64,000 nucleotides of DNA from Halorubrum alkaliphilum (GTDB lineage: Archaea > Halobacteriota > Halobacteria > Halobacteriales > Haloferacaceae), in NCBI RefSeq assembly GCF_017873815.1, contig NZ_JAGGKQ010000001.1, positions 1 to 64,000 of the forward strand, written 5' to 3'. The notes below the pieces were generated by a model that had not been told where the DNA came from, ran no database searches, and saw nothing but the letters and a program-made list of their open reading frames with translations. Below are positions 9,929-62,640 of this stretch, one piece after another; the first letter of the stretch is position 1, and each line of letters starts with the position of its first letter. The position numbers and the translations under genes were made by a program.

Positions 9929-10220
9929 GATTCCTCGCGGGGGTTGCCCGTAACTCCTCCCGGTTCGGGAATAAGCCTGTTGCCCGCCGGCGTCACGGTT
10001 CCCGATCGGTCAGCTCTCTCCGATCGACCGTCGATCGTAGAGGACCATGTCATCATATAGCGTGGTACGGCTTCCGTAAATAAAACCCCGTCGTATGCGT
10101 GGGTTTTCACCGTCGTCGACGGTCGAATCGGAGACCGACGTGTTCGTCTCTCCTGCGGTCAGTGTGGACGTTCGTGTGAGCGATGTCGGGAGTGGGTCTC
10201 GCAATACGTTGGAGTGAGTG

Positions 10221-10312
10221 TTTATAAGTGGGGTAGTGGTATTGTTGGCGGCTGTTTATAAATAGATGGTGCTGTGGTGAACAGTTCCACATCTCTAGCT
10301 GTTCGTTTATAA
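10221..10312 (+). promoter_or_regulatory. triple TTTATAA box array of copy A
   Basis: Three identical GTTTATAA-type boxes start at 10221, 10255 and 10306. Each has the form of a haloarchaeal TATA box on the plus strand, but none is followed by an ORF at leaderless distance. The 34- and 51-base spacing recurs in copies B and C. Confidence 0.55.
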
Positions 10313-10354
10313 ACGGTTGGCAACGAATCAGTGGTGGACACCTCCAAAGCCCCA

Positions 10355-10503
10355 GTCTGCTCCGGTCGAGGGGCTCGCTGCGCGCTCACACGGCTCGCTG
10401 CGCTCGCCCTTTTTGAGTGCTTGCGTCGTCATCAGAACGCTCCGCGTTCTGATCGGCTCACGAGAGCGCCGCTCTCGTGAACGCCCATCTTCCCGGAGCA
10501 GAC
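10355..10503. repeat. nested hairpin region of copy A
   Basis: A perfect 11-bp stem (gtctgctccgg at 10355-10365 with ccggagcagac at 10493-10503) encloses further perfect hairpins, such as ATCAGAACGC/GCGTTCTGAT and CACGAGAGCG/CGCTCTCGTG. The corresponding stretch in copy C has a different closing stem, and in copy B it is missing. Confidence 0.7.
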
Positions 10504-10861
10504 TGCCCCTTTGAGTCCCGCCCCGCACAGCACCCGCACCTCACGCCTCCCCAGCCTCGTCGGCCGGCCTCCGCTTCGCTTCGGCCGACCGACTCCCTCG
10601 CGCCGTCGGTTCGCGCCCTCAAAAGGGCGCGAACCGGGGCGCGCCACCGCACGGTTTGTTTATAAGCGATCGTTGCTGTCGCTCACAGTCCGTTTAAATA
10701 CGATCACGTCGCTGCCGATTTGCGAGACCCACTCCCGGAATCACTCACAGGCGTATCAGTATCGACCTGATCGCGGTCGATACGTATCACCGCCGGAGGA
10801 TCGCGACGTAGTCGACCGATCCGAGCGCAACCACTACGACGCTCGCGGACGTGGTCGTCAC

Positions 10862-11641
10862 ATGGAGTTCTCCGGAGCGGTCATCGACGTCGACGGGACG
10901 GTCGTTCGCGGTAACGACCCGATCCCCGGCGCACCAGAGGGGTACCGCCGGATCCGTGAGGCCGGGATCGATCCGCTGTTCGTCTCGAACAACCCGACGA
11001 AAGCACCGCCGGCGTACGTCGACCGGCTCGGATCTGCGGGGTACGACGTGGACACGGACCGCGTCATCACGGCCGGCACGGTGACGACGGAGTATCTCCG
11101 GCGACACCACCCCGACGACGAACTGCTCTGTATCGGCGCGCCCGGGCTGTTCGACCAGTTCGTCGACGCCGGACTCTCGACGACCGAGGACGTGGACGCG
11201 GCGGACGCGCTGGTCGCGTCCATCGACCGCGAGTTCGACTACGACGACCTGTGTACCGCCCTGTGGGCGCTCGATCGTGGGATCCCCTTCATCGGAACGG
11301 ATCCCGACGTCGTCATTCCCGCGCCCGAACGCGACGTACCCGGATCCGGTGCGGTGATCCGATCGATCGCCGGGGTCGCGGAGCGCGACCCCGATGTCGT
11401 CCTCGGAAAACCCTCGGAGCCCGCGATCGAGATGGTCCGCGAGCGACTCCCCTCCCCGCCCGAGGAGTGTCTCGTGGTCGGGGACCGCCTCGACACCGAC
11501 ATCGAACTCGGCGCACGCGCCGGCATGACGACCGTACTCGTGCGCTCGGGCGTCACCGACGAGGCGACGCTTGCCGAGAGCCATCTCGACCCCGATTACG
11601 TCCTCGACCATCTCGGCGAGATCGGTCGCGTGATCGGCTGA
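10862..11641 (+). CDS. HAD-superfamily phosphatase, NagD/HAD-IIA type
   Basis: The 259-aa protein starts at the ATG at 10862 (MEFSGAVIDVDGTVVRGNDP). Motif I is DVDGT, with both catalytic Asp residues. Motif II is FVSNNPTKAPP. The C2-cap region follows, then a motif III Lys in VLGKPSEPAIEMV and motif IV VVGDRLDTDIELGARAGM. This is the NagD / 4-nitrophenylphosphatase / phosphoglycolate-phosphatase-like arrangement, so a small-molecule phosphatase is expected; the substrate cannot be read from sequence. The frame stays open upstream into repeat copy A, but that part lacks family similarity. Confidence 0.87.
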   Translation: MEFSGAVIDVDGTVVRGNDPIPGAPEGYRRIREAGIDPLFVSNNPTKAPPAYVDRLGSAGYDVDTDRVITAGTVTTEYLRRHHPDDELLCIGAPGLFDQFVDAGLSTTEDVDAADALVASIDREFDYDDLCTALWALDRGIPFIGTDPDVVIPAPERDVPGSGAVIRSIAGVAERDPDVVLGKPSEPAIEMVRERLPSPPEECLVVGDRLDTDIELGARAGMTTVLVRSGVTDEATLAESHLDPDYVLDHLGEIGRVIG

Positions 11642-22474: not shown

Positions 22475-22582
22475 CCCGACCGCGTCGACCCCGTTAGAAC
22501 CCCATTGACCGACCCCCACTCACGTAAACCGACTCGCTGATCGACACTATCTCCTGATCGACATCGGGAGCATATCGAACAT

Positions 22583-22995
22583 ACTGAGGCGGTGGTATTT
22601 ATAACGGAGAGAGCGGTGTTGCTGGCGGCGGTTTATAACTGATCGAGGGTGTGTTGAACTACTCAAAAACTCCAGCCGCTCGTTTATAAGTCGAGGACTG
22701 CGGATCGACGGTGACGACCTCCAAAGCCCCGCCCTGCCCCGCACCCGCACCTCATGCCTCCCCAGCCTCGTCAGGGACGGTCGCCGAGCGGTTCCGGCGA
22801 CCGTCCCTGACTCCAGCGAGAATCGGAGATACTCTGGCAGCCGGCGGCTCCGCCGCCGGTGACGCCAACCGCCTCGTTCGTTTATAAGGGAGCGTTGCTG
22901 TCGCTCACAGTCCAGTTATATATGACCGCGTCGCTGCCGATGTGATCGATTCACTCCCGCCATCGCTCACCGACGTATCCGTACTGATCGGGGCC
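22583..22995 (+). repeat. dispersed structured non-coding element, copy B (short form)
   Basis: It has the same plan and orientation as copy A. TTTATAA boxes lie at 22598, 22632 and 22683 (spacing 34 and 51), then CCTCCAAAGCCCC at 22718-22730, again 35 bases after the third box. Here the nested-hairpin region is almost gone: only 16 bases separate the first block from GCACCTCATGCCTCCCCAGC at 22747. A perfect 16-bp hairpin (22770-22785 with 22796-22811) and a 7-bp one (22841-22847 with 22853-22859) follow. Boxes at 22881 and about 22915 are again 34 apart, and the tail contains CGTCGCTGCCGAT and TTCACTCCCGCCATCGCTCA. This copy accounts for the gap between thrC and the next gene. Confidence 0.8.
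22770..22811. repeat. 16-bp perfect hairpin of copy B
   Basis: gtcagggacggtcgcc pairs perfectly with ggcgaccgtccctgac around a 10-base loop. The hairpin sits directly after the CCCCAGCCTC block, as do the unrelated-sequence hairpins of copies A and C. Confidence 0.8.
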
Positions 22996-28003: not shown

Positions 28004-29779
28004 ATGAAGCCAGAACGCGCACGCGTCAGGAACTACAAGAGCATCGACGATACGGGGTGGGTCGAGATCGACGATCTCACCTGCCTCATCGGAAAAAACG
28101 AATCCGGAAAGACCGTCCTCATGGAGGCGCTGACGCGTCTCAACCCCGCTCAGGGGGAGAGTTCGTTCACGCCGTACGAGGACTATCCGAGACGTCGGTG
28201 GTCCGAATACAAGGACCGACACGACGACAACCCCGACCCGGTCGTGAGCGTCGAGTTCGCGCTCGACCGGGAGGAGCGTTCCCTGCTCGACGAGCACGGG
28301 GGCCGCGCTCCGAACGGAACGGTCGTGGTGACGAAGGACTACGCGAACGACCGGCACTGGGATATCGAAGTCGACGAGTCGACGGCGGCCGCCGCCGACC
28401 AGATCGGTGAGGAAGTGCTCGCTCCCGAGCTCCCGGCGTTCCAGTACGTCGGAGAGTACAGCTCGCTGGACGCGTCCATCGACCTCGACGCGTTCGCCGA
28501 GCGGGTCGAAACGGGCGAACGAACCGCCTCGGATCGCGTGTTCGAGTCGTTGCTCTCGGTGGCCGACCTGTCGGTCGACTCGCTTCGGCAGGAGGACTGG
28601 CGCGAGACGCTCACCGATCTCGAGGCCGCCTCAAGCGAGGTGACGAGCGCGGTCACCGACTACTGGAGCCAAGCGGACGACGTGGTGGTTCGACTCCGCG
28701 GGGTCGACGGGGAGTCGCGAACGGTGGAGGTGCGCGTCGAGAACCCACATCATGGAGTGACCGTCGAGTTCGACCAGCGATCACAGGGGTTCCGCTGGTT
28801 CTTTTCGACGTTCTGTACCCTGTTTGCCCTCCGGGATGCGGACGAGGAGGTGGTCCTACTGCTTGACGAGCCGGGTCTCCATCTCCATCCCAAGGCCAAA
28901 CGCGAGTTCCTCTCGTTCCTCGACGAGGAGATCGCTGCCGATGGGACCGTTATGTACAGCACCCACTCGCCGTTCATGATCGATCTCGACCGGGCCCACC
29001 GGACGAAGATGATCCACAAGGATCCGGAAACCGGATCCACCGTGCTCTCGGATCCCGACGACGCGGACGCGTACACGCGGTTCCCGCTCCAGAACGTGTT
29101 CGAGCTCGGCGTGATGGAGACGATGGTGTCGCGGTCGCAACTCCTGTTGGTTGAGGACGGAACGACCTACGAGTACCTCTATAACGTCTCCGACCTGCTT
29201 GAGGACACCGACGCGCCGGTGTTGGATCGCGGGTGGACCGTCCTCCCGATCGGTACCCTCGAAAACACGGCGACGGTTCGGTCCGTCTTCGACACCGGCG
29301 AACGGGAGGTCGCGATCGTTCACGACGGAACGGAGCTCGGCGGCTCTCCGCCTCCCGGAGACGTCACCGTCGTCGGAATCGGTTCACACGCGCTCGTCGA
29401 CGGAGACGCGACGATCGAGGACGTCCTCTCGGAGTCGTTCTATCTCGAACTCGTCAACCGGACGTACGCCGGTGAGTTCTCGGCCGCCTCCGGGGCCCCG
29501 GACCGCGTAACGAGCGCGGGACTCGCCGACGTCGCGTCGACGGGGCCGATCGTCGACCGACTCGACCGGTACTTCGCGGAACACGGGATCGCCGACGGCT
29601 CGTTCGAGCGATCGCGGCCCGCAACGTACCTCCAACGACATCGCGGGGAGTTCGCCGACGAGGTGGACATGGACACCCGGAAGGCGTTCGGGTCGCTGGC
29701 TCGTGAACTGAACCGGACGCTCGGACACTTCGACGGCGACCGGAAGACCGGGTTCTTCGAGTCGCTGTTCGGCGGGTAG
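28004..29779 (+). CDS. OLD-family-like AAA ATPase with degenerate Toprim region
   Basis: The 591-aa product has an ABC-type ATPase. Walker A is LIGKNESGKTVLMEAL (residues about 28-43), Walker B is VVLLLDEPGLHLHPKAKREF, and the H-loop is YSTHSPFMID. A C-terminal region follows like the Toprim part of OLD nucleases (SQLLLVEDGTTYEYL, TVLPIGTLENTATV, EDVLSESFYLELVN). Where Toprim nucleases carry a DxD pair, the sequence reads AIVHDGTELG, so the second acid is missing. OLD proteins act in phage defence or DNA repair. Nuclease activity is doubtful here. It directly precedes repeat copy C. Confidence 0.75.
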   Translation: MKPERARVRNYKSIDDTGWVEIDDLTCLIGKNESGKTVLMEALTRLNPAQGESSFTPYEDYPRRRWSEYKDRHDDNPDPVVSVEFALDREERSLLDEHGGRAPNGTVVVTKDYANDRHWDIEVDESTAAAADQIGEEVLAPELPAFQYVGEYSSLDASIDLDAFAERVETGERTASDRVFESLLSVADLSVDSLRQEDWRETLTDLEAASSEVTSAVTDYWSQADDVVVRLRGVDGESRTVEVRVENPHHGVTVEFDQRSQGFRWFFSTFCTLFALRDADEEVVLLLDEPGLHLHPKAKREFLSFLDEEIAADGTVMYSTHSPFMIDLDRAHRTKMIHKDPETGSTVLSDPDDADAYTRFPLQNVFELGVMETMVSRSQLLLVEDGTTYEYLYNVSDLLEDTDAPVLDRGWTVLPIGTLENTATVRSVFDTGEREVAIVHDGTELGGSPPPGDVTVVGIGSHALVDGDATIEDVLSESFYLELVNRTYAGEFSAASGAPDRVTSAGLADVASTGPIVDRLDRYFAEHGIADGSFERSRPATYLQRHRGEFADEVDMDTRKAFGSLARELNRTLGHFDGDRKTGFFESLFGG

Positions 29780-29794
29780 CCGCCACGCTTATTT

Positions 29795-30395
29795 ATCACG
29801 CATTGATCGATAGCGGGAGTGAATCGCTCGGATCGACGGCGACGAGACCGTATTTAAATGGGTGTGAGCGGCGTTGTCAACCACTTATAAGTGATCGATG
29901 CGGTGGCGCGCGCCGTGAGCGGCCCGGAGGGCCGCGAACGACCGCGCGAGGGAGTCGGGGGGCCCCCCCCCCCCGGGGGGGGGGGGGGGGCCCCCGACGA
30001 GGCTGGGGAGGTGTGAGGTGCGGTGGCGGTTGCGGTTCGGGGTGGGACTCAAAAGGGCAGTCGCCGGACTACGTCCGGCTGCCAGAGGCGGGGAGCGCCT
30101 CGCTGCCGTGCGGGCGGCGTACGCTCGTTGCGCTCCTCACTCGGTCGCAAGCTCCCTCGTTGCGGTGTCGCCGGCGGCGGAGCCGCCGGCTGCCCGTGGC
30201 GCGGAGCGCCACACTGCTTACGTCACCTACGCCGCCCGCACGGATGGGGCTTTGGAGGTCTCCACCGACGATCCGCAGTCAACTACTTATAAACGAACGG
30301 TCGGGACTGCGGTGGCGTCTACTCCGTTTTCGATCACTTATAAACCCCCCGCCAGCAACACCACTCTCTCATTTATAAACGACCGCTCCGTTGGT
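29795..30395 (-). repeat. dispersed structured non-coding element, copy C (inverted)
   Basis: Read on the minus strand, the order is as in copies A and B. TTTATAA boxes have 5' ends at 30379, 30344 and 30293 (spacing 35 and 51), then CCTCCAAAGCCCC at 30258-30246, 35 bases on. A nested-hairpin region follows, closed by a perfect 14-bp stem (30228-30241 with 30108-30121). The GCACCTCACACCTCCCCAGC block starts at 30021. A G/C homopolymer palindrome (29954-29998) and a hairpin (29919-29925 with 29929-29935) come next. The fourth and fifth boxes are at about 29891 and 29858, then the tail GATTCACTCCCGCTATCGAT. It lies between the OLD-like gene and tRNA-Gly and contains no credible gene. Confidence 0.8.
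29954..29998. repeat. G/C homopolymer palindrome inside copy C
   Basis: The tract consists of runs of 6 G, 12 C, 16 G and 5 C between flanking gtc and gac. It occupies the site where copies A and B have an ordinary hairpin. It is either real slippage of a hairpin or a base-calling/assembly artefact. Confidence 0.75.
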
Positions 30396-30430
30396 ACGCT
30401 CCGATCTCGTCTGTTTCGATTCCGCAGGAA

Positions 30431-30501
30431 TGCACCGTCCGGGAATTGAACCCGGGCTATTAGCTTGGGAAGCTAATGTCCTACCACTGGACCAACGGTG
30501 C
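30431..30501 (-). tRNA. tRNA-Gly (anticodon CCC)
   Basis: On the minus strand, a 71-nt cloverleaf has acceptor GCACCGT/ACGGTGC with discriminator A. The D arm contains GGTCCAGTGGTAGGAC. The anticodon stem TTAGC/GCTAA has loop TTCCCAA, giving anticodon CCC. The T arm is CCGGG-TTCAATT-CCCGG. No intron or encoded CCA is seen. It lies next to repeat copy C. Confidence 0.95.
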
Positions 30502-62554: not shown

Positions 62555-62640
62555 CGACCGACTCCATCAAATATCACTTCGTTGCCATCGATCTGAGCGA
62601 TTCACTCCCGCTATCGCTCACACGTCCTCCCGTACAGATA
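62555..62640 (+). repeat. dispersed element, partial tail copy D
   Basis: Only the end of the element is present: ACTCCATCAAATATCAC, then CGTTGCCATCGATCTGAGC and ATTCACTCCCGCTATCGCTC. These align with the tails of copies A, B and C, for example TTCACTCCCGCCATCGCTCA in B. The five-box ladder and the hairpins are missing. It lies immediately upstream of the deleted transporter pseudogene. Confidence 0.7.

Follow-up and report, generated by a model that had tools for sequence, protein, structure and literature searches.

The REP and BIME sequences of enterobacteria are imperfect palindromes that lie between genes in high copy number and often occur as inverted pairs. The BOX elements of Streptococcus pneumoniae are interspersed, non-coding, and present in high copy number, and are built from fixed end modules and variable tandem middle modules. 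They possess inverted-repeat ends, form stem-loops, and are found in excess between convergent genes, a placement that has been taken as a sign of mobile, parasitic repeats (PMC3049150). Correia elements of Neisseria are small and feature inverted repeats, promoter-like sites, and the possibility of inversion (PMC10969869). Among haloarchaea, the sections of the Haloquadratum walsbyi study considered here describe MITEs and SMRs as transposase-free, inverted-repeat mobile repeats, some of them nested in mobile elements (PMC3119063). Furthermore, the halovirus HF2, which infects Halorubrum, carries intergenic repeats of 56–58 bp with TATA promoters whose transcription start sites lie 26 nt downstream; TATA-bearing repeats of such length can act as promoters in a haloarchaeal host (PMC8707807).

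The window (the whole stretch of 64,000 nt of Halorubrum DNA that was analysed) contains three long copies of a repeat, termed elements A, B, and C, along with a truncated fourth copy. Their features are as follows.

10187–10737, plus strand: element A between its inner inverted repeats, 551 bp, with a perfect 17-bp inverted repeat at both ends; member of a genome-wide family
10187–10203, plus strand: left inverted repeat of element A, CGGGAGTGGGTCTCGCA
10221–10227, plus strand: box 1 of A, TTTATAA, the best conserved 7-column window of the left module (ascertainment-biased)
10255–10261, plus strand: box 2 of A, TTTATAA, recognised by sequence and conservation
10306–10312, plus strand: box 3 of A, TTTATAA, which opens a 57-bp unit and lies 34 bp before ACCTCCAAAG
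10341–10523, plus strand: hairpin P1 of A, containing a nested palindrome as an insert (covariance model R1, 55.5 bits)
10559–10593, plus strand: hairpin P2 of A, whose arms pair within copies and not between copies
10599–10643, plus strand: hairpin P3 of A, recognised by sequence and fold
10659–10665, plus strand: box 4 of A, TTTATAA, recognised by sequence
10693–10700, plus strand: box 5 of A, TTTAAATA, recognised by sequence
10721–10737, plus strand: right inverted repeat of element A, TGCGAGACCCACTCCCG
10738–10815, plus strand: decayed IS5-type end (class I frame) beyond the right inverted repeat of A (12.6 bits)
22565–22959, plus strand: element B, with a P2 hairpin at 22770–22811 and no P1 match
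22598, 22632, 22683, and 22881, plus strand: TTTATAA boxes of element B; fifth box TTATATA at 22916
29814–30406, minus strand: element C, directly downstream of tRNA-Gly (30431–30501, minus strand)
30379, 30344, and 30293, minus strand: TTTATAA boxes of element C; fourth box CTTATAA at 29891 and fifth box TTTAAATA at 29858
30113–30187, plus strand: apical part of P1 in element C, oriented opposite to the remainder of C (covariance model R1, 46.3 bits)
62565–62622, plus strand: truncated fourth copy, a lone right end with its inverted repeat at 62594–62610 and a decayed box 5

The traits listed above for BOX recur in these elements, which differ in being archaeal, in bearing a TATA-type box in the middle units, and in enclosing an interior hairpin that is found across the order. 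The likeness claimed is one of architecture only, since no sequence relation of the genus-limited Halorubrum elements to boxA, boxB, and boxC is known (PMC3049150). Unlike the sites of Correia elements, which they resemble in the traits given, the Halorubrum boxes are archaeal TATA sequences, number up to five or more, point one way by an outer T, and do not stand upstream of genes (PMC10969869). SMR-A of Haloquadratum is about 110 bp, and neither a ladder nor a covarying hairpin is described in the sections considered (PMC3119063). The HF2 repeats, which are proven promoters, match the 57-bp unit in length, TATA box, and link to Halorubrum, but feature the core TCTTTAAGTC, are sited before viral genes, and have no such hairpin described (PMC8707807). 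A similarity to the class I repeats of HF2 failed on the different core motif and on the lack of any phage BLAST match for element A. P1 shares with REP and BIME the imperfect palindrome, the intergenic position, the high copy number, and the frequent inverted pairs, while it is about 126 bp long with 32 pairs, archaeal, and unlinked to a RAYT-type transposase. Its likeness to the attC sites of integrons was noted in a structure kept over changing sequence.

In the first-pass annotation, each long copy was described as a ladder of five promoter-strength boxes in the same orientation, and all box coordinates in A, B, and C were verified against the sequence. Exact TTTATAA accounts for 11 of the 15 boxes, the remaining four being close variants, and the spacings are 34/51/.../34 (35 in C). 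With 12 occurrences in the window against 0.06 expected, GTTTATAA is not a product of chance. The common orientation holds by one outer T only, because TTATAA is its own reverse complement and the palindromic core gives no direction. Similarly, the number five is correct for A, B, and C and varies elsewhere, with fewer or more boxes in other copies. The 17-bp terminal inverted repeat, the extensive hairpin interior, and the roughly 79 seed matches across the genome do not figure in that annotation.

The build of the elements explains this variation. An intact copy reads, in order, inverted repeat CGGGAGTRGGTCTCGCA, boxes 1 and 2, 57-bp units, hairpins P1–P3, boxes 4 and 5, and inverted repeat. 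Each 57-bp unit starts with a box, and the units can stand in tandem, from 1 to about 8 copies between the end modules. Several loci repeat the unit in tandem with a period of exactly 57 bp, and one relative carries seven near-identical copies. Moreover, boxes 1, 2, and 3 each open a divergent copy of one repeat, which appears at its full 57 bp or truncated to 51 and 34 bp. A seed from the unit core, ACCTCCAAAGCCCC, gave 79 matches in the genome at no more than one mismatch against one for its reversed control, and element A as a BLAST query returned 81 pieces of the genome. The sequence CGGGAGTRGGTCTCGCA is common to both ends; the fetched loci contain 43 left ends and 35 right ends that bear it, although a single right end is spurious. 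Within a single copy, the left and right inner repeats resemble each other more closely than those of different copies do (p = 0.0076, inner 17 bp).

The shell of the element is confined to one genus. A search with a 179-bp left consensus detected it in 48 of 53 genomes of Halorubrum and in 0 of 118 other genomes of the family. The same ladder is also present in two Halorubrum records, one of which aligns with the family through P1. The ladder pattern by itself is useless as a search key because AT-rich genomes swamp the results. The end modules gave no clear structure signal in three of four strand and module tests, the left module on the plus strand reaching z = -3.5 with few pairs. A coding tandem repeat, conceivable for a unit length divisible by 3, was rejected: of the six reading frames through the longest array, five are broken by stops, and the one that stays open is read from the reverse strand. 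A viral origin was also rejected, with no BLAST match of element A in phages and 0 viral-contig matches for the module of boxes 1 and 2; an 18-mer of the 57-bp unit has six viral-contig matches, none of which has a P1 match.

Outside the inner repeats, some copies retain insertion sequence ends marked by the terminal repeat GGCTCYGTTGAAATCC, which was matched 43 times in the search and twice in its control. Profiles built from insertion sequence ends without a ladder placed 13 of 77 flanks above 10 bits and none of 300 controls. An insertion sequence with frame-type ends (C24:37033–38640; G000, L343) encodes an IS5-family transposase (NF033579) interrupted by one TAG stop, and such ends are absent from the other NF033579 transposases of the genome. 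IS6-type ends, as suggested by GGCTCTGTTGAAATCC, were rejected: PF13610 matched weakly at two places, and the end-bearing insertion sequence, whose transposase belongs to the IS5 family, was not among them. Framed copies resemble MITEs in being short (588–746 bp) and having no recognised coding ORF, and in a minority of copies the outer ends match an IS5-family insertion sequence, as terminal repeats related to a resident transposon should. The inner inverted repeats have no match among the transposons found. The ladder lies one way within the frame in L007 and L009 and the opposite way in L065 and L008. Around the L065 copy, a near target duplication, TTATAACT/TTATAATT, was observed as a single case. 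Neither A nor C offered a clean empty site; synteny was too poor for exact junctions, and locus A is non-syntenic in other species. Most copies lack a recognisable IS5 frame, so that transposition in trans by an IS5-type enzyme stands as an inference. Taken as a whole, the elements are probably non-coding mobile mosaic repeats on an old P1 core with a Halorubrum TATA shell, partly framed by IS5-type ends. The ladder is a real and heritable feature of a single genus, and it is the visible part of this mosaic mobile repeat.

The hairpin core is the larger and less expected result. Using covariance model R1 at E <= 1e-4, P1 was detected in 279 of 392 Halobacteriales genomes and in 73 of the 95 genera sampled, with a maximum of 90 matches per genome; the 113 genomes of the order with no P1 match serve as an internal negative control. 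No TATA ladder was found on P1 outside Halorubrum. In other genera (L379–L408), it takes the form ..GCGAACA NNNN GAAAGCCCC-(stem)-GCCCCTTTCAGTCCCACCC and is often arranged in inverted pairs with the CCCACCC ends facing. A second, inverted P1 is present in 7 of 30 loci, with the same ends facing in all seven. No Rfam RNA family matched above its gathering score, and the exact sequence of P1 had no match in the openly accessible literature searched. The hairpin core of the mosaic repeat is common to most halophilic archaea and undescribed in the databases and literature searched. Together with its compensatory changes, this distribution suggests that one of the best-studied archaeal groups harbours a widespread repeat or structured element. 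Since the boxes are genus-limited and P1 is order-wide, the ladder is a genus-specific, promoter-like shell on an older hairpin repeat.

The stem of P1 keeps its pairing while its sequence varies. It is bracketed by two conserved connectors, CCTCCAAAGCCCCAG and CTGCCCCTTTGAGTCCC; the stem between them differs in sequence among copies and retains its complementarity, and the arms of both P1 and P2 pair with those of the same copy and not with those of different copies (0 of 5000 permutations each). Compensatory changes were observed in 23 of the 32 pairs among 31 sequences. Across the order, 49 sequences showed 96.1% of cells paired and double changes in 27 of 32 pairs. The covariation score was 0.70 for these 49 sequences, against 0.17 when shuffled and no more than 0.09 when slid; this alignment was made by fitting to the model, a procedure that favours pairing, but the slid controls derive from the same alignment. 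For instance, the closing helix is CAAAG/CTTTG in Halorubrum and GAAAG/CTTTC elsewhere, a compensatory change. Arm-to-arm repair of the palindrome could imitate such covariation without selection, while conserved mismatches within the stem speak against repair alone.

Several features bear on the level, DNA or RNA, at which the hairpin is maintained. Wobble-type cells are scarce in both readings, with 12 GT and 17 AC among 1440 cells (two odd pairs excluded). On the side of RNA, the minus strand gives the better RNA fold in 30 of 31 sequences, because the invariant TC/TC mismatches are read there as tandem GA. Tandem GA on the minus strand also aids a DNA hairpin, and P1 is computed to be stable as single-stranded DNA. 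Additionally, C (window positions 30113–30187) and the loci L070, L251, L265, L066, L076, and L047 carry the apical part of P1 flipped with respect to the remainder of the element, as if the loop had been inverted by recombination between the stem arms. Scarce wobble pairs and inverted apices favour a palindrome acting at the DNA level. P1 may be a DNA hairpin used as a site of recombination or transposition, REP-, attC-, or IS200/605-like, to which the TATA shell is incidental. This explanation, held with less than even confidence, draws on a structure that is kept despite sequence change with nearly all pairs of Watson-Crick type, on its stability as single-stranded DNA, on the inverted apical parts, and on the inverted pairs with their identical facing arrangement. 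It is weakened as no recombinase or transposase is linked to P1 and as the possible repair between arms could mimic the covariation.

The relation of the boxes to native promoters was assessed at 222 gene starts, where strong AT hexamers peak 27–31 bp before the start codon. At this position, TTTATA and TTTTAA are the commonest hexamers, with 7 of 22 each. The boxes, which contain TTTATA, therefore look like TATA elements of this organism's own promoters. Of the units in this genome, 66 of 81 have a TATA-like hexamer 30–37 bp ahead of the hairpin edge, as do 47 of 84 from other Halorubrum loci and 0 of 39 from other genera; shared ancestry by itself would account for this fixed spacing. Within this genome, the box columns belong to the better conserved parts of the element, a ranking partly biased by the selection of ends, with ascertainment bias for boxes 1 and 5. 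In other Halorubrum species, the boxes are not conserved above the rest of the 57-bp unit. Inspection of the aligned copies by eye revealed no haloarchaeal BRE (CGAAA) upstream of the boxes; it was likewise not visible in a small set of native promoters. Judged from the sequence, promoter use of the boxes is plausible.

On that basis, the boxes might be working tandem promoters of a multi-copy non-coding RNA family that yields short structured RNAs spanning P1–P3. The native-like hexamer, the constant 34-bp distance to a strongly structured hairpin, the covariation of P1, the HF2 precedent of repeats with TATA promoters and starts 26 nt downstream (PMC8707807), and the tandem GA pairs of the better-folded minus strand all speak for it. 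In A, the segment 10336–10658, from the predicted start downstream of box 3, folds with z = -7.1. The proposal is nevertheless rather doubtful, as P1 in other genera stands without any TATA (0 of 39), wobble pairs are few in either reading, which is atypical of evolving RNAs, several copies (C among them) carry the top of P1 in inverted orientation, and the better-folding strand is not the one that the boxes face. A broader proposal, in which P1 is an undescribed, order-wide functional hairpin (single-stranded DNA or RNA) that Halorubrum has set under multiplied TATA promoters, either for structured transcripts or for DNA opening towards extrusion or recombination, is considered unlikely.

A further function ascribed to the ladders is sequestration, in which they would act as a sink or memory for TBP and TFB paralogues. 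The elements span less than 2% of contig C1 and contain 27 of its 47 TTATAA sites, a count made up of 25 in set element intervals and two identified by eye in a truncated copy (85050–85124). Nevertheless, copy number varies widely among species, the elements are wholly missing from some of them, and no BRE was seen, which renders sequestration very improbable. Because so many of the perfect TTATAA sites on this contig fall within the elements, TBP and TFB maps and promoter predictions in Halorubrum must take them into account. A free-standing promoter array is ruled out by the family, the inverted repeats, and the hairpin interior. The earlier suggestion that an array without ORFs implies several short transcripts or TBP sequestration gives way to an array that arises as a side effect of tandem units within a mobile mosaic repeat.

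The placement of copies relative to genes was examined in the same light. For the 23 complete copies with both neighbours called, 12 gaps are convergent, 8 co-directional, and 3 divergent; the convergent share departs from 25% with p = 0.005. The right neighbour is co-oriented in just 7 of 24 copies. Element A is located in a divergent gap, with its box 5 directed outward to a gene that starts near 10862 and has no TATA of its own near the start, which is the case in favour of boxes that drive adjacent genes in the manner of Correia elements. The gene to the right of element B, in contrast, carries a TATA box of its own, 30 bp ahead of the ATG. The set of 23 does not show the positioning expected of Correia-like promoters of neighbouring genes, and box placement argues against the driving of neighbours, which is regarded as improbable. 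About 25 bp separate the tRNA-Gly gene at 30431–30501 from element C, which lies downstream of it. In the element-free relatives G034 and G050, neither a tRNA nor an element is present just after the homologue of the gene at 28004–29779.

The mobile mosaic repeat was probably assembled in the following manner. The core P1 is an old imperfect-palindrome repeat spread across haloarchaea, whose left edge, in the Halorubrum lineage, appears to have acquired a TATA box 34 bp upstream and so to have given rise to the 57-bp unit. Slippage or unequal recombination could then have multiplied this unit into the ladder of boxes 1–3 and the related boxes 4 and 5. The 17-bp inverted repeats would have closed the assembly, along with IS5-type insertion sequence ends in some copies, and an IS5-type transposase probably moved the element in trans. 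TBP likely binds the boxes, and some of them may start transcripts into the hairpins, about 8 nt before P1 if transcription begins 26 nt after the box. Copies would persist mainly where neighbours are least disturbed, that is, between convergent genes. Two minor observations concern the palindromes themselves. The P2 stem of C (29958–30001) and those of L084 and L089 contain a long C run with G after or before it, which may be a hypervariable palindrome or an assembly artefact. The palindrome nested in P1 of A (10419–10483) has relatives of 81–90% identity on plasmids of Natrinema, Haloterrigena, Haloferax, and others.
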